Shown here one piece after another: positions 13,641 to 39,631 of a stretch of DNA of 64,000 bases. Position 1 is the first letter of the stretch, and each line of letters starts with the position of its first letter. Made by a program: the position numbers and the translations under genes. The notes below the pieces were generated by a model. That model was not told where the DNA came from. It saw only the letters and a list, made by a program, of their open reading frames with translations, and did not search any database. Source of the DNA: Runella sp. CRIBMP (GTDB lineage Bacteria > Bacteroidota > Bacteroidia > Cytophagales > Spirosomataceae); contig NZ_JAAAKZ010000003.1 of NCBI RefSeq assembly GCF_009905605.1, positions 62,001-126,000 on the forward strand, written 5' to 3'.

Positions 13641-14855
13641 ATGCTTTACTACCTATTTTCTTATTTAGACAAAGAATTCAACTTTCCAGGTGCCGGAGTT
13701 TTCCAATATATTTCTTTCAGAGCCCTTGGTGCCACCATTACCTCCCTATTGATTGCAGCGATTTTTGGGGGGCGTATCATTAATTTTCTCCGCAACCAAC
13801 AAATTGGGGAAACAATCCGAGATTTGGGCCTTCAAGGTCAGATGGAAAAGAAAGGGACTCCTACCATGGGGGGGTTTATTATTTTGGCTTCCTTGCTCAT
13901 CCCTGCCTTATTGTTTGCCAAATTGTCTAATGTATATATTGTTCTCCTGCTGATCACAGCTGTTTGGACTGGCCTTATTGGTTTCTTGGACGATTACATA
14001 AAAAAGTTTAAAAACAATAAAGAGGGGTTACAAGGCAAGTTTAAAGTTGTGGGTCAGGTAGGATTGGGGCTAATTGTTGGGATAACGTTGTCTTTCAATC
14101 AACATGTTAAAATCAGGCAATACGATAAGCCACTTATCAGTTCGGCCATTGGTGAAGTACAGCGTTATACAGATGTCATCAATCCGACAATCACTACTTT
14201 GCCCTTTATAAAAAACAATGAGTTTGATTACTCTTCATTATTATTCGGCTTATTACCAGATAGTTACACATGGATAATTTACACCATTGTAGCCGTTTTT
14301 ATCATTACAGCCGTATCAAATGGGGCAAATATTACGGATGGAATTGATGGTTTGGCGGCAGGAACATCTATCATTATTGCCCTAACACTTGGAGTTTTAG
14401 CCTACATCTCTGGAAACGCCAAATTCTCGCAGTACCTCAATATCATGTATATTCCCAACTCTGGAGAGCTGGTTATATTTATTGCGGCTTTTGTGGGTGC
14501 TTGTGTGGGCTTTTTGTGGTATAATTCTTACCCTGCGCAGGTTTTTATGGGAGATACGGGCAGTTTGATGTTGGGGGGAGTTATTGCGGTTATATCGCTG
14601 GCTGTGCGCAAAGAATTATTAATTCCTATCATGTGCGGCATCTTTCTGGTTGAACTTGTCTCCGTTATTTTACAGGTGAGTTATTTTAAGTATACCAAGA
14701 AGAAATTTGGAGAAGGAAAGCGTATTTTTCTAATGTCACCTTTACACCATCATTTTCAGAAGAAAGGCTATCATGAAGCCAAAATTGTGGCCCGTTTCTG
14801 GATTGTAGGTATTATTTTAGCAATTGCTACGTTAGTTACTTTAAAACTAAGATAA
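13641..14855 (+). CDS. mraY: Phospho-N-acetylmuramoyl-pentapeptide-transferase
   Basis: Integral membrane enzyme that moves phospho-MurNAc-pentapeptide from UDP to undecaprenyl phosphate, making lipid I; 404 residues, normal for Bacteroidota where a longer loop is usual. About ten membrane helices. Active-site motifs: [12 protein letters not shown], the Asp pair in [34 protein letters not shown] and the HHHF near the C-terminus. It normally sits between murE and murD in the dcw cluster; here it stands alone on the plus strand, more than 17 kb from murD and on the other side of the proposed origin. Confidence 0.97.
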
Positions 14856-15447: not shown

Positions 15448-17286
15448 TTAAAGAGTATCCCCTCGTAGTTGCCTGAAACGCTTTCTAGCGTCGGCAGCAT
15501 AGATACTTGCGGGGTATTTTTCGAGCATTTTCTGGTACAACTCCATTGATTTGTCTTTATCTTTAAAGCGATTCTGATACAATTCTGCCATCATAAAAAG
15601 GGCATCATCGCCCAATATGTCGGTCGAAAACTTATCCACAATTACCTGCAAGTTATCCACTGCTTTTTGATTTTCTCCCATTTTAGCATAGGTCCGAGCT
15701 TTCAGCCACAGAATCTCATCGGCAAGCGGGTGATCTTTGTACCTTACAAACATCCCGTCTAAGCGGTCTAGCGCTAGCTGTGTTTGATTTTGATAAAGAA
15801 GCAAGTCGATGGCTGCATATTCCTTCATCGCGTCTTCTGAGGTGTCTAAACCCGTGTTATCCTGAATCAATAAGCTCAGTGCTCCAGCGTCGTTGGCAAT
15901 TTCTCTCGTTGTGGCCATTTTCAGGATGTCCAATAAGGCTTTTGATAACTCAAAATCACCTGTATAATAAAATTGTCGGGCATTGCGGAGTTTAGCTTCG
16001 TAGCCAAGCGGGGTTTCTTTCTGCGATTTTTCAACCTGCGAATACAAAAGTGTCGACTCCCATGGTTCATTTTTTAAGAGAAAAATATCACCCAAGTCCA
16101 ATTTGCATTTATCAACAAAATCGCTTTCTGCCCGGCCTATTTTCACGGCATTCTGCAAGATGACGGTAGCGCTATCTTTTTCATTCAAGTAAAACGCGTA
16201 CAAACTTGCCATACTCCGCATAGCTTCAAGCGTACGATTGTTTTGACCAAGTTCTCCCAACAACTTTTTATAATCTTCAATCAAGCGTCTCACCGACGTT
16301 ATTTCCACGGGAAATGTATTTTTTACTTGTTCTTCTCGCGCCACAATCATCATCCGTCGGGCATAAGGATAGAGTTGTCCTTGTGGATAATCTTTCACGA
16401 CATATTCAAAAGACTGAATGGCTGCCGGGTAATCTTTGTTTTGTAGCGCCAAATTTCCTAAATCAAATACTTTCGTCCCGTTGTATTTAAACCGTCTATC
16501 CAACGCCCTTTCTTGAATGAAAGCTTTACTGAACTGTTTTTTTTGGGTCAAAAACCAAATCAGCATTTCGGCAAAGAAAGGCTCGTTGGGCTGGCGTTGG
16601 ATTTTTTCGTACAGAATCTTTTCAAATTTTGCCTGATCTTTTTCTTCCCGCAGAAAATCTTGAAAATAGTTTTGAATTACTTCCTTGCTTTGAATCGCCA
16701 CACCCAAGCTCAGCAATTCTTCAATCATCTGTTCTGTTTTTCCAGTTTGAGCGTATAAGGCCGCCAATTCCATTTTAAACAAATTATCATTTTTGGCCAC
16801 ATCTCTAGCTTTCAACAGAGTGTTGATGGCTGCATCCGTATTATCTATTTCTCTAAATTCATCAGCTAATTCTTTAAATGCATTCAAATCTTTTGGAGGT
16901 ATTTGGGCAATACTCTCTTGGTATTTTTGAGCGGCTGGCACTGCTTGCCCCATTTGCTCCAACATTCGCCCCCAGTATAGTGTATAGAGGTATCCCACAT
17001 TTTCATCAGATTTCTGCTGACGTTTAAAGAATTTTTCAGCTTCGTCAAAACTTTTGAGTTTGACCATACAGCCCACATACCTCCGCAAATAGATTTTGTT
17101 AAAATCTTTCCGCAAAACTTTTTGATAGAGTGGTGCTACTTTTTCACACTCACCTTTTTGAAAGTATGCATCTGCTAAGTCGGCATCACTTTGGGCGTGG
17201 CTTTCTGTAGACACCAAAAGTAAAATGACCCCAATAAACAGTATCCACAAACGATACGGAGTTGTACACATTTTTCTTGCACCCAT
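15448..17286 (-). CDS. Exported tetratricopeptide-repeat protein
   Basis: About 612 residues. A signal peptide is seen from ATG 17286 or 17271 (CTTPYRLWILFIGVILLL, cut near ESHAQ); longer frames from 17334 run through the AT-rich side of the origin and are unlikely. The rest is a long array of TPR-like helical pairs (for example ADAYFQKGECEKVAPLYQ near the N-terminus and DDALFMMAELYQNRFKDKDK near the C-terminus), so it is probably a periplasmic or outer-membrane scaffold. No catalytic domain was recognised. Its promoter would have to lie within the proposed oriC region, so its expression could be affected by origin activity. Confidence 0.85.
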   Translation of the reverse strand: MGARKMCTTPYRLWILFIGVILLLVSTESHAQSDADLADAYFQKGECEKVAPLYQKVLRKDFNKIYLRRYVGCMVKLKSFDEAEKFFKRQQKSDENVGYLYTLYWGRMLEQMGQAVPAAQKYQESIAQIPPKDLNAFKELADEFREIDNTDAAINTLLKARDVAKNDNLFKMELAALYAQTGKTEQMIEELLSLGVAIQSKEVIQNYFQDFLREEKDQAKFEKILYEKIQRQPNEPFFAEMLIWFLTQKKQFSKAFIQERALDRRFKYNGTKVFDLGNLALQNKDYPAAIQSFEYVVKDYPQGQLYPYARRMMIVAREEQVKNTFPVEITSVRRLIEDYKKLLGELGQNNRTLEAMRSMASLYAFYLNEKDSATVILQNAVKIGRAESDFVDKCKLDLGDIFLLKNEPWESTLLYSQVEKSQKETPLGYEAKLRNARQFYYTGDFELSKALLDILKMATTREIANDAGALSLLIQDNTGLDTSEDAMKEYAAIDLLLYQNQTQLALDRLDGMFVRYKDHPLADEILWLKARTYAKMGENQKAVDNLQVIVDKFSTDILGDDALFMMAELYQNRFKDKDKSMELYQKMLEKYPASIYAADARKRFRQLRGDTL

Positions 17287-17334
17287 TTTAATAATAATAT
17301 ATTTAATTTTTAAACTATTATAATCCATTAGCAC
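17287..17334. other. AT-rich candidate DNA-unwinding element
   Basis: A run of almost pure A/T (about 17287-17325) directly next to the DnaA-box cluster and just upstream of the TPR gene start. Origins place such an easily melted stretch beside the boxes, so it is the best candidate for the unwinding element. Confidence 0.55.
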
Positions 17335-17859
17335 CGGGGATAAGTGGATAAGAAAGTTATCCCCGCGTTATCCACTTATTGTTAAAACGTAAATGTGTAT
17401 AAGTAGTAGGTTTATCCACGTCGTTTTATTTTTATCCACAACTGAAATTACTGTTTTTCAGGCATATCTGCAACTATTCACAATTTGTCGTGGATTGTGG
17501 ATAATTTTGTTCACGTTGTGGATGATTATTTTTCCACATTTAAACATGTTTAAAACGGCTTGAAATGATGTGGGAAATCAGGGTACATTCCCACATTTGC
17601 ATTGTTGATAAATAGTTCTCCACATTATCCAAATGTTATCTACACGTTTTCCCACTACTTATCCACTTACCTATAAACATCTTTATTGGTTATCCACATA
17701 CTTATTCACAAGTTCTCCTCACAATTCTGTTTTTTGTGAAATAGGTGTTCCACAACCTAAAACTTACCTAGCTACTTTTTACACTATCTCAAAAAGTGAA
17801 CCAAACTATATAATAGCTTTTCCACAGAGTGTGAATGATGTGGATTATTTTGTGGATAA
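17335..17859. other. Putative chromosomal replication origin (oriC)
   Basis: A 525-bp largely non-coding stretch crowded with DnaA boxes. Six match TTATNCACA exactly: 17394-17402 (minus), 17432-17440 (plus), 17496-17504 (minus), 17690-17698 (plus), 17702-17710 (plus) and 17851-17859 (minus). At least eight more have one mismatch, for example 17412-17420, 17474-17482, 17517-17525, 17530-17538, 17636-17644, 17659-17667, 17818-17826 and 17839-17847. An inverted repeat (17335-17343 with 17357-17365) lies at the AT-rich edge. mnmG (gidA), a frequent origin neighbour, is 1.8 kb away. The last box overlaps the 3' end of the Ig-like gene. dnaA itself is not in the window. Confidence 0.88.
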
Positions 17860-19470
17860 GTCGATATCTATACCACTCATCACAAAGTTTTTCTTCACTT
17901 TAACGGCTTCGTTGTGAAAAAACACTGGTTCGGCTAGTTTATTGGCTTTTACATCACCCGTATCCCATTGTCCGTTTCCATTTTCATCCACAATAACGCG
18001 CAGCGTGTATGTAGCGGGTTTTAGATAGGAAAAAACATAAGGAGTTTTGTTACTGATTGACTTAACTACTTCAAACTTATCGTCGAGCAGTTCAACGATA
18101 AATTTACTTTTAGCCCCTTTTATTTCCCCTTCCAATGTGCCGTAGTTTTCTTCATCCATGATAGGGAGCTTATAAATTTTGGCAGGGATTGTATCGTTTT
18201 CTACGCTAAAGAAAGTGGCTTTGGGAATGATTACTTTGAGTTCTCGACGGGCTAGAATAGGTCGAGAAAGTGAAAGAATAGCGTGATTATTGGCCCATGT
18301 AAAATCGGTAATTTTGATGACTTCGGCTTTTGTGCTATCGCTAATAATCTGTATTTGATTAAGTCTTGCTTCGGCTACGGGTTTATTAAAGGTTAATTTT
18401 AGCGCAAAATTTCTAGGTTCTATTTCGCCATTATCGGGAAAATTTGTCTTCATATCGAAGGGCTCGCGGTTGGTATCTGCGGCCTTCCCTCCTCCCCTAG
18501 CTTCCCTAAATTTTATTTTTTGGGTATGTTCAAAGGTCAATCCTACGGAATCCACAATCGTTATTTTGGCTACAAGGGTGTCCTTGCGATTCTTTGTATT
18601 ATAGAACTTCAGCTCGTTAGTCCCCGCCTGAAAGTGCGGAATGGAGTCTTCTGGGTTGTTAAATTTTACTTTGTATTCAAGGAATCCTTTATCGTAGTTT
18701 ACGGAGTAATAATTGGCCCTAGGCTGCGTATTTCGCACTTTTGCGGGGGTATTATTGGCCATAAACAGCCTTAATGAAACGCCTGAGATTTGCGTAGAGT
18801 CAACAATTGTGATGCTATCCCTTAAATACGCGATTTTTTCGGCCCTTGGATTATAGCTTAAAGAGCGGTTTTTATCGTCAAAAGCAAATAGTTTGTACTT
18901 ATTCGGGCGAATATTTTCAATGCTGTATCGGCCTGCACTATCTGAACGTGTGAAGTAGCTTGGCTTCATTTTTTCAATATTCAGGGTGTCTGAATTTGGG
19001 TACAGGCCTACCAAGACATCCAATAATGGTTTATCCGAGAGTAAATCTTTTACCTGCCCACCTACAGATGCAGAGTCAATACCTACACCCGTACTGAAGA
19101 CAACGCGAAGATTTCGGGCTGGATTTTTTTCGCTGAAATCTTTGATGGCATCGCCAAAGGAAAGTGAATAAGTTGTGGCTGTGTCAAGCGATTTTTTGAA
19201 TTTGATTTGCAGTCCTGTTGGCCTAGCCTTAAAATCATATTCACCTGCATCGGGAGTTATCAACAGTTTTTGTTGTAAATTTTCCGCGACAATGTATTCG
19301 TCAAACTCTAAGTCAACTGTACGCCCTTTGTAATTTGTTTGCTTATTGTTAGGGGTGCTTGATATAAGATTTGGTGGTACGGTGTCCCTCTTTCCTCCCG
19401 TAGGAGAAATGGGCTGAGCGCAGGATATTACCAAAATATAGAGTATAATGTAGAATGGAAAATTTCTCAT
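17845..19470 (-). CDS. Ig-like domain lipoprotein
   Basis: Exported protein of about 541 residues. The start at 19470 (MRNFPFYIILYILVISC) gives a clean lipoprotein signal with VISC at residues 14-17; the longer frame from 19518 adds an unlikely extension. An SbsA-type Ig-like domain follows (PPNLISSTPNNKQTNYKG, then VDLEFDEYIVAENL), with a carboxypeptidase-regulatory-like stretch in the middle (SAGRYSIENIRPNKYKLFAF) and another near the C-terminus (YVFSYLKPATYTLRVIVDENGNGQWDTGD). Proteins of this architecture are frequent cell-surface lipoproteins in Bacteroidota; function unknown. Its stop codon lies inside the proposed oriC, between DnaA boxes. Confidence 0.85.
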   Translation of the reverse strand: MRNFPFYIILYILVISCAQPISPTGGKRDTVPPNLISSTPNNKQTNYKGRTVDLEFDEYIVAENLQQKLLITPDAGEYDFKARPTGLQIKFKKSLDTATTYSLSFGDAIKDFSEKNPARNLRVVFSTGVGIDSASVGGQVKDLLSDKPLLDVLVGLYPNSDTLNIEKMKPSYFTRSDSAGRYSIENIRPNKYKLFAFDDKNRSLSYNPRAEKIAYLRDSITIVDSTQISGVSLRLFMANNTPAKVRNTQPRANYYSVNYDKGFLEYKVKFNNPEDSIPHFQAGTNELKFYNTKNRKDTLVAKITIVDSVGLTFEHTQKIKFREARGGGKAADTNREPFDMKTNFPDNGEIEPRNFALKLTFNKPVAEARLNQIQIISDSTKAEVIKITDFTWANNHAILSLSRPILARRELKVIIPKATFFSVENDTIPAKIYKLPIMDEENYGTLEGEIKGAKSKFIVELLDDKFEVVKSISNKTPYVFSYLKPATYTLRVIVDENGNGQWDTGDVKANKLAEPVFFHNEAVKVKKNFVMSGIDIDLSTK

Positions 19471-19646
19471 TAGGTGATGGTGAGATTGAAGAACTGGTTT
19501 ATAAGTTATCTTTATCATGCTTTTAGCAGACAGTTTTTTATGTAATACAAGTGTGATTGTTTTTATGCTACGAACAAATGGTTTGAAAGCCTCTGCAAAT
19601 TAACATCTTTTAAATCCTCAAGTTGAATTTAGGGGTGTATTGCAAA

Positions 19647-19705: not shown

Positions 19706-21568
19706 TTATCTTCCCAAGTAAATCATCAATACTGATACATCCGACGGACTGACGCCGCTTATTCGGGAAGCTTGCCCGAGTGTACCTGGACGGAGGCTTT
19801 TGAGTTTTTGACGCCCTTCAAATGACAGGGCAGATACGCGGTCATAGTCGAAATTTGGGATGATTTCAAGGTCCTCTAATCTATTCATCTTTTCTACCAT
19901 GAGGTATTCTTTCTCAATGTAGCTTTCGTATTTCACCGTAATCATAGCTTGTTCCAACGCTTCTTCATCGAATTGATTCAGGAAACCTGCAAAGGAACCC
20001 TTAAGATTCTTAATGTCATCTATCTCAATATCGGGTCGTTTTAGCAACTGATACAAGGGCTGTTTTTCTCGAATCGTTGCAGTGCCCAATTGCGCTAGTT
20101 GTTCGTTTATCTCTTCGGGTTGGGCTTTGATGGTTTTGAGTTCTTTTAAAATCAACTCAGTATTAGCCACTTTTTCACGAACGCGTTGGAGACGGGATTC
20201 AGCCGCGAGTCCGAGTTTGTACCCTTTTTCTGTAAGACGAATGTCTGCGTTATCTTGTCGTAATAGAGTACGATATTCGGCCCTTGACGTAAACATACGG
20301 TAAGGCTCGTCGGTCCCTTTATTGACGAGGTCGTCTACCAATACGCCAATGTATGCTTCTGAGCGCTTTAAAATGAATGGCTCCAACTCATGAGTATTTT
20401 GATGAGCGTTTATACCCGCAATTAATCCTTGACAAGCAGCTTCTTCATAACCCGTTGTCCCGTTGATTTGTCCTGCAAAAAACAGGTTCTTGATAAGATG
20501 GGTTTCGAGGGTTAACTTTAATTGTGTAGGTGGAAAATAATCGTATTCTATGGCGTAGCCAGGACGAAACATTTTTGCGTTTTCAAACCCAGGAATCAAA
20601 CGCAGTGCCTTGTATTGAACATCCTCTGGAAGAGATGTGGAAAAACCGTTTACGTAAATTTCAACGGTGTTCCATCCTTCTGGTTCCACAAAAATCTGAT
20701 GTCTGTCTTTGTCGGCAAATCGGTTGATTTTATCTTCAACTGATGGACAGTAACGAGGCCCCAAGCCTTTGATACGACCCGAAAACATGGGTGATTTGTC
20801 AAACCCTGTACGTAACGCAGCGTGAACTTCTTCGTTGGTGTAGGTAATCCAACAACTTCGTTGGTGTTCAAGCTTGGGCGTGGAGGTGTACGAAAATTTA
20901 GCGGGATTCTCGTCCCCAGGCTGCTCTTCCATGCGTGTATAATCCAACGAACGCCCATCAATGCGTGGAGGTGTTCCTGTTTTCATTCGCCCCGATTCAA
21001 AGCCTAATTCAATCAATTGCTCCGTTATTCCCGTTGCTGACTTCTCTCCTACCCTTCCACCTCCAAAATTTTTCTCTCCAATATGAATTAATCCATTCAA
21101 AAAAGTGCCATTGGTTAGGACTACTGATTTGCTTTGGATTGCCATTCCGAGGCTTGTTTTTATACCTGCCACTACCCCATTTTTGACAATAAGCTCACGA
21201 ACGGTGTCTTGCCAAAAATCTACATTGGCCGTTTGTTCAAGTGTCATTCGCCATTCTTCTGCAAAACGCATACGGTCGCTTTGACATCTTGGCGACCACA
21301 TAGCGGGCCCCTTTGATCGGTTGAGCATTCTGAATTGAATCATTGTTTTGTCGCTGATGATTCCAGACTGTCCACCAAGTGCATCTATTTCTCTCACGAT
21401 TTGTCCCTTAGCAACCCCCCCCATTGCGGGGTTACAAGACATTTGCGCAATGGTGTGCATGTTCATTGTAATGAGCAAAACTTTGGACCCCATGTTTGCT
21501 GCTGCTGCTGCCGCCTCACATCCTGCATGGCCTGCCCCAACCACAATAACATCGTATTTTGGAAACAT
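19706..21568 (-). CDS. mnmG: tRNA uridine-5-carboxymethylaminomethyl modification enzyme MnmG (GidA)
   Basis: FAD-dependent subunit that, with the GTPase MnmE, installs the carboxymethylaminomethyl group on the wobble uridine of certain tRNAs; 620 residues, exactly the family size. The dinucleotide-binding N-terminus (VIVVGAGHAGCEAAAAAA), the SCNPAMGGVAKGQIVREID signature and the second family motif (RTGTPPRIDGRSLDY region) are intact; the C-terminal helical tRNA/MnmE-binding part is complete. In many bacteria gidA lies next to oriC, as here. It is the last gene of a minus-strand run and has its own terminator. Confidence 0.97.
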   Translation of the reverse strand: MFPKYDVIVVGAGHAGCEAAAAAANMGSKVLLITMNMHTIAQMSCNPAMGGVAKGQIVREIDALGGQSGIISDKTMIQFRMLNRSKGPAMWSPRCQSDRMRFAEEWRMTLEQTANVDFWQDTVRELIVKNGVVAGIKTSLGMAIQSKSVVLTNGTFLNGLIHIGEKNFGGGRVGEKSATGITEQLIELGFESGRMKTGTPPRIDGRSLDYTRMEEQPGDENPAKFSYTSTPKLEHQRSCWITYTNEEVHAALRTGFDKSPMFSGRIKGLGPRYCPSVEDKINRFADKDRHQIFVEPEGWNTVEIYVNGFSTSLPEDVQYKALRLIPGFENAKMFRPGYAIEYDYFPPTQLKLTLETHLIKNLFFAGQINGTTGYEEAACQGLIAGINAHQNTHELEPFILKRSEAYIGVLVDDLVNKGTDEPYRMFTSRAEYRTLLRQDNADIRLTEKGYKLGLAAESRLQRVREKVANTELILKELKTIKAQPEEINEQLAQLGTATIREKQPLYQLLKRPDIEIDDIKNLKGSFAGFLNQFDEEALEQAMITVKYESYIEKEYLMVEKMNRLEDLEIIPNFDYDRVSALSFEGRQKLKSLRPGTLGQASRISGVSPSDVSVLMIYLGR

Positions 21569-31278: not shown

Positions 31279-32448
31279 TTATAAATTTGTTTCTTCAATA
31301 TCCCCTCTGCTTACACTCAGTACAATTCCGAGTGAGATACAGGTAAATAAAACGGAGGTTCCCCCCATGCTTAATAAAGGCAACGGTTGGCCAGTGACTG
31401 GGAAAATCCCTACGGCTACTGCCATATTTGTAAATGCCTGTAATCCAATGCTTAATATGAGTCCTGCGGAGAGCAGCCCGCCGAAAGCTCGATTGGTTTC
31501 ATTGATATTTTGGACTCCACGCACCAGCAAAATAGCATACAAAATCATGATAATAATTCCTCCGATAATGCCGTATTCTTCAATAATAATGGCGTATATA
31601 AAGTCAGAATAGGCTTGGGTAAGGTAGTTTCGTTGGTGACTTTTTCCGAGTCCTTGTCCGAGCGTTCCGCCATTGGCGATGGCAATAAAACCTTGCTTAG
31701 CTTGATACTCATCACGTTTGAGAAATCGCTCGATACGTCCCTGAGCTGTATCAAGGCGTTGGCCTACCACAAGACCTGTTGCCCCCGCAATGCCAATAGA
31801 AACGACCATCACGGCTAAATATTTGCCTGGTACACGGCCAATGTATAGCATCAAAAAGCACGAGAATCCCAACAAAACGGCCGTAGAGGTACTGGTAAGG
31901 GCAATAAAAAAACAGATAATCCCAACCCACAAAATCATTTTTCCGAAAATCTGCCAGTCATATTGCACGCGCTGACGTTTGGCAAGCATTGCTGCCAGAT
32001 TGGCAATCAGCGCCAAACGAGCAAAGTCGGCGGGCTGAAAGGTTAAGCCAGTGCCTGGAATTGCCAACCAACGAGTAGCGCCGTTGATGGTAACCCCCGC
32101 TACTTTTACCAGAATCAATAAAGGAATAGAAATTAGGAGGGCAGCCCGCGATAACCGCGAGAAATAGGTATAATTGATACGATGAACGCCCCACATAACC
32201 AATAAGCCGATTCCCGTAAAAAAGGCGTGTTTAAACAGAAAAGATTCAGGATAACCACCACCTCGCTGATAAGCAAGTGTTCCCGTTGCGCTGTACACAA
32301 TAAGCATACTAGCAAGGGACAAAAGCGCTACAATAATCCATATGACAATATCTCCTTTCAGGTTTTGACGAAGCCATTCCTTGGCGTTTTGCCAACGGTC
32401 AAATGGGGAGGTGGACTGTGGTGGGGGCGCATTCATCTCGTTATTCAT
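31279..32448 (-). CDS. ftsW: SEDS peptidoglycan glycosyltransferase FtsW
   Basis: Polytopic SEDS-family membrane protein that polymerises lipid II at the septum with its cognate class B PBP; about 389 residues from the start at 32448 (MNNEMNAPPP; 32436 is also possible). A cytoplasmic N-terminus is followed by about ten helices starting DIVIWIIVALLSLASML. SEDS motifs seen: WLAIPGTGLTFQPADFARL, GGTLGQGLGKSHQRN and MGGTSVLFTCISLGIVLS near the end. The start overlaps the murD stop by 8 bases, indicating translational coupling. Confidence 0.96.
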   Translation of the reverse strand: MNNEMNAPPPQSTSPFDRWQNAKEWLRQNLKGDIVIWIIVALLSLASMLIVYSATGTLAYQRGGGYPESFLFKHAFFTGIGLLVMWGVHRINYTYFSRLSRAALLISIPLLILVKVAGVTINGATRWLAIPGTGLTFQPADFARLALIANLAAMLAKRQRVQYDWQIFGKMILWVGIICFFIALTSTSTAVLLGFSCFLMLYIGRVPGKYLAVMVVSIGIAGATGLVVGQRLDTAQGRIERFLKRDEYQAKQGFIAIANGGTLGQGLGKSHQRNYLTQAYSDFIYAIIIEEYGIIGGIIIMILYAILLVRGVQNINETNRAFGGLLSAGLILSIGLQAFTNMAVAVGIFPVTGQPLPLLSMGGTSVLFTCISLGIVLSVSRGDIEETNL

Positions 32449-33820
32449 CGTTTTTTTGGGAATTAATTGCAAAATCCAGAACGGCCGCTTTGAATAAATC
32501 GCCGCGGTTTTCGTAATTTTTGAACAAGTCAAAACTGGCGCAAGCAGGCGATAACAACGCCACGTCGTCAGGATGACCTAACGAAACAGCATGAGCTACA
32601 GCTTTACTTACGTCCTGTGTCTCAATGATTACAGGAACGATAGGGGTAAAAAACGAGAGAAGTTTGCTATTGTCTTTGCCCAGACAGATAAGGGCTTTTA
32701 CTTTCTGACGAACTAAGTCTTCGATTTGGGTATAATCGTTGCCTTTATCCACTCCGCCAGCAATCCAAATAATTGGGGTATCAAAACTGTTAAGTGCGTA
32801 ATAAACCGAGTCTACATTGGTGGCTTTTGAATCATTGATGAACTTGATGCCGTTGATGTCTGCGATGGGCTCAAGCCGATGAGCCGCGTTTTGAAATGTC
32901 AAAAGACCCTGCCGAATTTGTTCATCACTTACTCCTGCCGCCATGGCTGCCAACGTTGCCGCCATGGCATTGATGGCATTATGAGGACCTTTAATCGGTA
33001 ATTCATTAGCGCTTATCTCAAAAGTACGGGGATGGCGTGTCAGATGCAATTTTCCTTCATGTAAAAAACCGCCATTGCTATCCTTTTTTACGAAAGAAAT
33101 GGGTAAGTGATTCACCATGAACGGTTTCTTGTCTAATTCAGAAGCGATGGCTTCATTATCAACAAAATAGATAAAATCGTCGCTCGGTTGCATATTTTGA
33201 AGTAACCGAAACTTTGAATCGACGTATTTCTGAAAAGTATACTCGTACCGGTCTAAGTGGTCAGGTGTAATGTTTAACAATATACCAATATCTGCTTTGA
33301 ATTGGTACATATTATCCAGTTGAAAGCTGCTTAACTCTAGCACAAACCAATCAAATTTATCTTCAATGACCTGCTTAGCAAAGCTTTCGCCGATATTGCC
33401 AGCGAGGCCTACATTAAAGCCCGCCGACTTCAGTAAATGATAGGTGAGTAAGGTAGTGGTGGTTTTTCCATTACTGCCCGTAATCGCGATTTTTTTTGCT
33501 TTCGTGTACCTTGCGGCGAATTCTATTTCTGAAATAACGGGTGTTCCCTGAGCATATAATTTTTTGACCAACGGAGCCGTATCGGGAATTCCGGGGCTTT
33601 TAATGACCTCATCAGCAGCCAAGATTCGTTCCTCTGTATGTTTCCCTTCTTCAAAATCAACGCCATGGACATTCAGGATATTACGATATTCTTCAGATAA
33701 AGTGCCTTTGTCTGATAGAAAAACATCAAATCCTTTGGCTTGGGCGAGCAATGCTGCGCCTACACCACTTTCACCTCCGCCTAGAACAACGGTTTTAAAC
33801 GTATTTCGGGAAATCATCAA
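32441..33820 (-). CDS. murD: UDP-N-acetylmuramoylalanine--D-glutamate ligase
   Basis: Adds D-glutamate to UDP-MurNAc-L-Ala; 459 residues. The N-terminal fold (VVLGGGESGVGAALLA), ATP loop AITGSNGKTTTTLLTY, the ITPDHLDRY segment and NDSKATNVDSVYYAL are MurD-typical; the C-terminal domain has LSPACASFDLFKNYENRG. It is the first dcw gene here; mraY and murE, its usual upstream neighbours in Bacteroidota, are missing and a 388-bp AT-rich gap precedes it. Confidence 0.97.
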   Translation of the reverse strand: MMISRNTFKTVVLGGGESGVGAALLAQAKGFDVFLSDKGTLSEEYRNILNVHGVDFEEGKHTEERILAADEVIKSPGIPDTAPLVKKLYAQGTPVISEIEFAARYTKAKKIAITGSNGKTTTTLLTYHLLKSAGFNVGLAGNIGESFAKQVIEDKFDWFVLELSSFQLDNMYQFKADIGILLNITPDHLDRYEYTFQKYVDSKFRLLQNMQPSDDFIYFVDNEAIASELDKKPFMVNHLPISFVKKDSNGGFLHEGKLHLTRHPRTFEISANELPIKGPHNAINAMAATLAAMAAGVSDEQIRQGLLTFQNAAHRLEPIADINGIKFINDSKATNVDSVYYALNSFDTPIIWIAGGVDKGNDYTQIEDLVRQKVKALICLGKDNSKLLSFFTPIVPVIIETQDVSKAVAHAVSLGHPDDVALLSPACASFDLFKNYENRGDLFKAAVLDFAINSQKNDE

Positions 33821-38344: not shown

Positions 38345-39616
38345 ATGCTACTGATTCGTTCTGTTAAGATTATTGATAGTCGCTCGCCTTATAATGGGCA
38401 AACGAAAGATATTTTGGTCGAAAATGGAAAAATTGCCAAAATTGGCGACCAACTTGATGCCCCAGATGCTGAAATTCTGACGGGCCACAATTGGCATATT
38501 TCTTCGGGTTGGGTAGATATGCGGGTATCTTCTCACGACCCAGGCCATGAGCACAAAGAGGATTTGAGTACCGCCTGTGAAGCCGCCGTTGCGGGCGGTT
38601 ATACCGAAATCGCCGTGTTGCCCAACAGCCAACCAGCGTTGGATTCAAAAAATACGTTGGTTTATGTAAAGCAAAAAGCCGCCGACCAACTCGTGGCGGT
38701 ACACCCGATTGGTGCGGTCACGAAAGGATGTGAAGGCAAGGATTTTACGGAAATGATTGACTTAACGCACGCTGGTGCGGTGGCTTTTTCGGACGGTGTT
38801 CATGCCATTCAAAATACCCACATTTTCCTCAAATCGCTTCAGTATTTGCAGCAAGTCAACCGGGTACTGATGAATCGCCCCGAAGATTTTGATCTGACGG
38901 TGTTTGGACAAATGCACGAAGGGGAAGTCAGCACGTTGCTGGGAATGCGCGGTATCCCGTCGATTGCCGAAGAATTGATGATTATGCGAGATTTGAAATT
39001 GTTGGAATACGTGGGCATAAAAAGCCCAACTCCCCTACTCCATTTCTCGACCATCTCTACCGCCAATGCCGTGGCGTTGATTCGTCAGGCCAAAGCGCAG
39101 GGGTTGCCCGTTTCCTGCGATATTGCGGCGCACCAAATTGCGTTTGAAGATTCGCTTTTGACAGATTTTGATACGAATTATAAAGTCAACCCACCATTTA
39201 GGCAGCAAAAAGACATTGATGCCCTGTGGGAAGGTTTGGCCGATGGCACCATTGATGCCGTCGTTTCGGACCATAATCCTCAGGACGAAGAAGCAAAAAA
39301 CCTAGAATTTGACTTGGCTGAATTTGGAATTATTGGGTTGGAAACGGCTTTTGGAGTGCTAAACACGTACAACAAAACGCTAAGCATTGAGCAAATTGTG
39401 GATAAGTTTACGCACCATCCGCGCACTATTTTACGGCTGCCAGCGCATACAATTTCGGAGGGTAATTTGGCCAAATTAACCCTCTTTAACCCCGACTTAG
39501 AATGGGTATTCTCCAGCACGCGCTCTAAGTCAAAAAACTCTCCTTTTTTCGGAAACCAGCTGAAAGGGAGAGCTTTATACGTTATTAATCGAAATAAAGT
39601 GGAGAAATGTGGATAA
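38345..39616 (+). CDS. Dihydroorotase-like protein lacking metal ligands (PyrC' type)
   Basis: A 423-residue homologue of class I dihydroorotase (amidohydrolase fold; ATG 38345, a GTG at 38327 also possible). The DxHxHxRxPG metal motif reads DMRVSSHDPG at residues 58-67, so both His ligands are replaced (by Arg60 and Ser62). The usual HCED is MNRPED and TDHAPH is SDHNPQ. HFST is kept. It is therefore unlikely to bind the catalytic zinc pair. Inactive dihydroorotases called PyrC' are known to act as structural partners of aspartate carbamoyltransferase in some bacteria; pyrB is in this window. Whether this organism has a second, active pyrC cannot be seen here. Confidence 0.85.
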   Translation: MLLIRSVKIIDSRSPYNGQTKDILVENGKIAKIGDQLDAPDAEILTGHNWHISSGWVDMRVSSHDPGHEHKEDLSTACEAAVAGGYTEIAVLPNSQPALDSKNTLVYVKQKAADQLVAVHPIGAVTKGCEGKDFTEMIDLTHAGAVAFSDGVHAIQNTHIFLKSLQYLQQVNRVLMNRPEDFDLTVFGQMHEGEVSTLLGMRGIPSIAEELMIMRDLKLLEYVGIKSPTPLLHFSTISTANAVALIRQAKAQGLPVSCDIAAHQIAFEDSLLTDFDTNYKVNPPFRQQKDIDALWEGLADGTIDAVVSDHNPQDEEAKNLEFDLAEFGIIGLETAFGVLNTYNKTLSIEQIVDKFTHHPRTILRLPAHTISEGNLAKLTLFNPDLEWVFSSTRSKSKNSPFFGNQLKGRALYVINRNKVEKCG

Positions 39617-39631
39617 CTCTGTGGATAAGTC

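Follow-up and report, generated by a model that had tools for sequence, protein, structure and literature searches.

A conserved DnaA-box cluster close to mnmG is very probably the chromosomal replication origin of a Runella species

The window analysed here is a 64-kb stretch (C23:62001-126000) of a Runella genome of 7.13 Mb in 55 contigs. A cluster of DnaA boxes lies in this window between the genes for a TPR-repeat protein and a Big_5 (Ig-like) protein, and the Big_5 gene is followed by mnmG (gidA) and an ORF which we take to be ybeY. The gene mnmG is also found close to oriC in E. coli; here, it is 1.85 kb from the cluster, in agreement with the 1.8 kb given in an initial annotation made from the sequence. 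The nine aligned Runella share an ATG at 17286, and the start of the TPR gene was placed there, while the ORF list has a GTG at 17334. With the ATG as the start, the non-coding region between the two genes is ~558 bp long (17287-17844), slightly longer than the 525 bp given in the initial annotation. Rfam searches at the gathering threshold found four tRNAs and nothing else. The features discussed below are as follows:

15448..17286, minus strand, gene for a TPR-repeat protein, flanking the putative oriC; start set by conservation
17287..17859, no strand, box cluster of the putative oriC with 6 exact and 14 one-mismatch DnaA boxes; homologous place kept in 74 of 80 loci
17287..17331, no strand, AT-rich tract (91% A+T) directly upstream of the TPR start, candidate DNA-unwinding element
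17315..17320, minus strand, TAATAG, DnaA-trio-like, in 9 of 9 aligned Runella
17335..17351, minus strand, box-like pair TTATCCACT and TTATCCCCG with a 1-base overlap, facing the AT tract; putative core of a BUS-like unwinding module
17336..17364, no strand, inverted repeat GGGGATAA...TTATCCCC (arms 17336-17343 and 17357-17364), in which two box-like sites face each other
17394..17402, minus strand, DnaA box TTATACACA, exact match
17432..17440, plus strand, DnaA box TTATCCACA, exact match, adjoining the conserved element at 17442..17460
17442..17460, minus strand, non-box element TGAAAAACAGTAATTTCAG, invariant in 9 of 9 aligned Runella
17496..17504, minus strand, DnaA box TTATCCACA, exact match
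17690..17698, plus strand, DnaA box TTATCCACA, exact match
17702..17710, plus strand, DnaA box TTATTCACA, exact match, 3 bp past the box at 17690..17698
17851..17859, minus strand, DnaA box TTATCCACA, exact match in all nine aligned Runella, located within the Big_5 3' end
17845..19518, minus strand, gene for a Big_5 (Ig-like) protein (PF13205), flanking the putative oriC
19706..21568, minus strand, mnmG (gidA) (PF01134, E 2e-166)

The number of matches to TTATNCACA in these 573 bp is far above what base composition produces. Among 2000 dinucleotide shuffles, the means were 0.07 exact and 1.4 one-mismatch boxes and the maxima 2 and 7, and not one shuffle attained 6 exact or 14 one-mismatch boxes. 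The initial annotation had reported six exact boxes in both orientations, at least eight one-mismatch boxes, a density far above chance, an inverted repeat, an adjacent AT-rich tract and an overlap of the last boxes with the 3' end of the Ig-like gene, and all of these were recovered at the positions listed above. The whole window contains 12 exact boxes compared to 2.6 expected, and the exact word TTATCCACA occurs 107 times genome-wide compared to 44 times for a reversed control pattern. The four copies of TTATCCACA in the cluster (C23:79432-79859) represent the densest group among the matches listed genome-wide. Six contigs of the source genome (L219-L224, positions 17-27) were also observed to start with two related repeat ends, with TTATCCACA located ~50 bp inside a TACA end, as if an insertion sequence carried a subterminal DnaA box.

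At the side of the TPR gene, the cluster ends in the AT-rich tract, where the best 40-bp window reaches 97% A+T, a value unmatched by any other 40-bp window in the 64 kb (windows taken every 5 bp). Conservation was assessed in an alignment of nine Runella sequences, which are alignable over their full length and of which two (G011 and L083) are near-identical, and in a family alignment of 23 rows, consisting of the window and 22 loci selected from 80 mnmG loci. An AT-rich tract was found at the same place in all nine aligned Runella, which also share TGAAAAACAGTAATTTCAG, the TAATAG motif of this tract and the box within the Big_5 3' end. The core is conserved more loosely in other genera; its order in the family alignment is box pair, short spacer, TAATA[A/G] and AT tract, and the second site of the box-like pair reads TATCCACAG in most rows from genera other than Runella. 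TAATA[A/G] directly follows the box pair in 18 of the 23 rows (counted by eye); it is missing from this place in the four Larkinella rows, and the Rhabdobacter row stops before it. A wider search found the motif in 22 of the 23 rows, with the Larkinella copies located further along the AT tract.

This arrangement resembles the basal unwinding system (BUS), which is described in PMC8287927 as a DnaA box pair, a spacer and DnaA-trios. As in the BUS described there, the box pair faces the AT tract across a short spacer and is followed by TAATAG or TAATAA, where TAG corresponds to the trio 3'-GAT-5'. Unlike in that description, the conserved frame has only two consecutive good trios, and the required run of three or more N-A-N trios, no further than 16 bp from a box, occurs there only at 17343, at a box with two mismatches. 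Hits to the trio rule in the region numbered 7, compared to a mean of 1.4 and a maximum of 8 in 200 mononucleotide shuffles. As shuffles can reach this count, it is mainly conservation and A+T content that speak for the proposed unwinding site.

A second conserved element, TGAAAAACAGTAATTTCAG, is not a DnaA box and occurs once in the genome, with no other copies at one or two mismatches and nine places at three mismatches. As an exact word, TGAAAAACA was found in 10 of 76 gap regions (six from Runella, two from Telluribacter and one each from Persicitalea and Rhabdobacter). The consensus of the IHF site in E. coli oriC is given as WATCARnnnnTTR in PMC8407004. At the position of the element (column 269 of the family alignment), 17 of the 23 rows differ from WATCARNNNNTTR by one position at most, compared to 6 of 23 for the next best column. 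The aligned IHF-like site is present in 17 of the 18 rows from genera other than Runella, with 12 of the 17 matching rows being Dyadobacter or Larkinella and therefore not independent, while two mismatches to the consensus were found in all five Runella rows and in one Persicitalea row. IHF-consensus hits per row averaged 3.1 compared to 1.3 in shuffles, but since box-like words resemble half of the consensus, only the column position counts and not this overall excess. The element could be compared to the E. coli site described in PMC8407004 in being conserved beside DnaA boxes, and differs from it in the form found in Runella, which is off at two positions. Moreover, a search with the PF00216 (HU/IHF) profile, and this profile only, found one gene in the source genome, and hence there is no evident dedicated IHF pair. 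An IHF-type site at 17442-17460 would be consistent with where the motif lies and with its shape. We tentatively consider it possible that Spirosomaceae origins carry a fixed second element beside the DnaA boxes, for bending or for an initiation protein. Most genera would have it in an IHF-like form, and in Runella it would have turned into one invariant sequence specific to the genus, which a different protein may recognise, these bacteria having no evident IHF pair.

The position of the cluster was compared across 80 mnmG loci from named genomes, and 9 of 39 genomes were taken for the sequence around the gene. In 74 of the 80 loci, the densest 600-bp window of boxes lies just after the Big_5 gene or just before the TPR gene; both markers were found in 46 of these 74 loci, Big_5 alone in 26 and TPR alone in 2. 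Among the remaining six loci, two have their densest window elsewhere (a Sphingobacteriales MAG and Pedobacter), two end before the place and two are without either marker found. The best windows contain 4 to 23 boxes at no more than one mismatch (median 11). Four genomes from outside the genus (G013, G015, G028 and G033) have the order TPR-Big_5-mnmG together with a peak of 13, 9, 14 and a weak 6 boxes, respectively; neither the arrangement nor the box peak was kept in G016, which belongs to the same family. Since the TPR gene begins directly at the AT tract, the boxes could instead be merely its DnaA-controlled promoter region, but this reading is hardly credible, as twenty boxes in 573 bp and a switch of replication strand at the same place exceed what a promoter needs, and as the position is also kept in the 26 of the 74 loci where a TPR homologue was not found. 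The roles of origin and TPR promoter may coexist.

The initial annotation had proposed that the minimum of the cumulative GC skew should fall at 17.3-17.9 kb. The raw minimum in the window was found at 35.6 kb, ~18 kb to the right of the cluster, and in sampled stretches of four Runella relatives it also lies 15-21 kb to the right. Skew samples from C23 are negative on the left side of the window's middle and positive on its right side, which places the origin in this region. From 14.9 to 37.7 kb, each retained ORF lies on the minus strand, and genes turn from minus to plus at 37.7 kb; the raw minimum is therefore displaced through a mixture of coding and replication bias, in what looks like an effect of gene direction. 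Raw skew was thus set aside for locating the origin, and four-fold degenerate sites were analyzed in a beta-binomial change-point model that includes gene strand. Genes were ORF calls of at least 150 aa (397 genes in the fit of the window's genome), boundaries were tried from -20 to 64 kb, and overdispersion was fixed in the fits of G010, G012, G011 and G003.

In the window's genome, the best switch is at 17334/17845, the boundary between the TPR and Big_5 genes that holds the boxes, with a log-likelihood 43.5 units above that of no switch. Neighbouring boundaries lose 2.1-2.6 units relative to this optimum; the loss is 7.6 units at 37.7 kb and 8.9 units at 39.6 kb. Minus-strand genes have a four-fold GC skew of +0.022 (n=28) to the left of the site and of -0.119 in the TPR gene; between the boxes and 37.7 kb the values are +0.185 (n=4), +0.175 (n=7) and +0.132 (n=2), and samples from the far right arm gave +0.191 (n=48) and +0.204 (n=113). 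Nine genomes were fitted, and the TPR/Big_5 boundary was also best in G010, G012 and G011. The window's genome, G010 and G012 are closely related and not independent; the most independent agreement comes from G011, whose mnmG is 86% identical. Raw skew therefore does not have the predicted minimum at the cluster, and a switch at four-fold sites falls there once gene strand is modelled, in these four genomes but not in G003. The best boundary in G003 is 11.4 kb to the right of the cluster, which is itself 4.75-5.9 units worse. Raw skew samples from G003 are mostly negative to the left of 2.02 Mb, apart from weak positives at 1.1-1.4 Mb; between 2.02 and 3.4 Mb they are positive, and between 3.9 and 5.1 Mb they are mixed. 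Outside the genus, the best boundary in G013 is 9.5 kb to the left of the cluster (cluster 4.9 units worse), G015 gives a weak fit in which the cluster is included, G028 gives no information, and the switch in G033 is 29-361 kb from the cluster. In G033, a single-contig genome (3.3 Mb) from the same taxonomic order, the sign of raw skew was observed to change near the homologous site (C1 ~1.746 Mb, L078) from plus to minus, opposite to Runella. With one Runella genome (G003) against it, the four-fold-site fit likely solves the skew paradox.

The raw minimum at 35.6 kb and the turn of genes at 37.7 kb would also fit an origin at ~36-39.7 kb, with a box pair at the pyrC/DUF4199 junction, in which case the cluster at 17.5 kb would be a DnaA-titrating or regulatory site. 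An exact box pair with 3-bp spacing at 39608-39628 was found in all five Runella genomes examined, and the best 40-bp window there has 78% A+T, within the top 0.7% of the 64-kb window. G003 also speaks for this place, as it ranks a boundary near the raw minimum (~+18 kb), just 1.3 units below its best, above the cluster. By comparison, a boundary at the raw minimum is 5.0 units worse in G012 and 10.1 units worse in G011, and the genes from 17.8 to 37.7 kb have the four-fold skew of the right arm. Moreover, exact boxes number only three in this region, two of them within pyrC, with a single further box at one mismatch, and it is the cluster at 17.5 kb whose position is maintained in other genera. 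Taken together with the 7.6 and 8.9 units by which its boundaries fall short in the window's genome, these observations make an origin at ~36-39.7 kb very unlikely. A role for the pair beside a cluster that initiates replication is also rather improbable, although less so; it would modulate DnaA in the manner of datA or DARS, or form the second half of a bipartite origin. The conservation of the pair within Runella and the occurrence of TTATNCACANNNTTATNCACA at two places only in the genome, 39608-39628 and the putative oriC, point in this direction. Its first box, however, consists of the last codons and the stop of pyrC, so that coding explains part of the conservation, and the 39.6-kb place was compared within Runella only.

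The weight of these observations argues strongly that 17287-17859 is the chromosomal replication origin (oriC) of a Runella species. This was also the interpretation of the initial annotation, and it is supported by the switch at four-fold sites and by the position and core layout kept in relatives. The boxes, their excess, their conserved position and the strand-composition switch in most Runella tested were computed, and from these we infer DnaA binding, unwinding and bending. DnaA would load on the six strong and many weaker boxes; starting at the box pair (17335-17351), a DnaA filament would grow into the AT tract at 17287-17331 along single-stranded motifs of the TAATAG type. The duplex would be opened at this tract, which would allow helicase loading and give rise to two outward forks. 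At 17442-17460, a bending protein of the HU/IHF family may perhaps fold the DnaA-bound DNA. This mechanism is drawn by analogy with E. coli and B. subtilis (PMC8287927).

In kind, this putative oriC is an ordinary, canonical bacterial one. Similarly to origins of the E. coli and B. subtilis type, it has boxes in both orientations, a flanking AT-rich tract and a switch of replication strand at the site, but unlike these, the Runella-type origin is without an adjacent dnaA and has Big_5 and TPR genes as its neighbours. The dnaA gene of the window's genome is on a different contig (C44), and the neighbourhood of dnaA was rejected as a candidate origin, as no exact TTATNCACA was found in 20 kb around dnaA on that contig. 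In seven relatives with both on one contig, the cluster and dnaA are at least 0.76 Mb apart; if these contigs are closed circles, the shorter separation is ~2.0 Mb in G003 and G010, 2.9 Mb in G011, 1.7 Mb in G013, 1.8 Mb in G015, 2.8 Mb in G028 and 0.76 Mb in G033. The dnaA match lies 0.5-0.6 kb into the contig in G003 and G013, and the numbering of these contigs starts at dnaA, megabases from where the origin probably is.

Searches of open-licence papers did not turn up any study of a Runella origin, and an origin prediction may exist in databases such as DoriC. What the analysis adds is a conserved element other than a DnaA box, the conservation of the cluster's position and a likely answer to the skew paradox. 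It also represents a worked case of raw GC skew lying 15-21 kb off the likely origin, owing to the dominance of a single gene block on one strand. The region offers a minimal origin that can be tested, as oriC plasmids require; in the same order, the oriC of Cytophaga hutchinsonii is reportedly an experimentally used origin, having been employed in such plasmids.

Two further observations concern the neighbourhood of the cluster. The division and cell-wall gene cluster is split around it, with mraY on the plus strand to the left (13641-14855) and ftsZ to murD on the minus strand to the right (32441-33820), and both halves would therefore be transcribed head-on to forks from the putative oriC. 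The same split was found in G010, G012 and G003, and mraY is outside the sampled stretch of G011. On the basis of gene order only, this suggests an inversion next to the origin, from ~14.9 to 33.9 kb (mraY plus, murD minus). In addition, the contig ends 8.2-8.6 kb past the end of mnmG in 19 loci from Dyadobacter, Larkinella, Telluribacter and Rhabdobacter (L085, L087-L089, L091-L094, L096, L098, L099, L101-L105 and L109-L111), which suggests a repeat near the origin, perhaps an rRNA operon.
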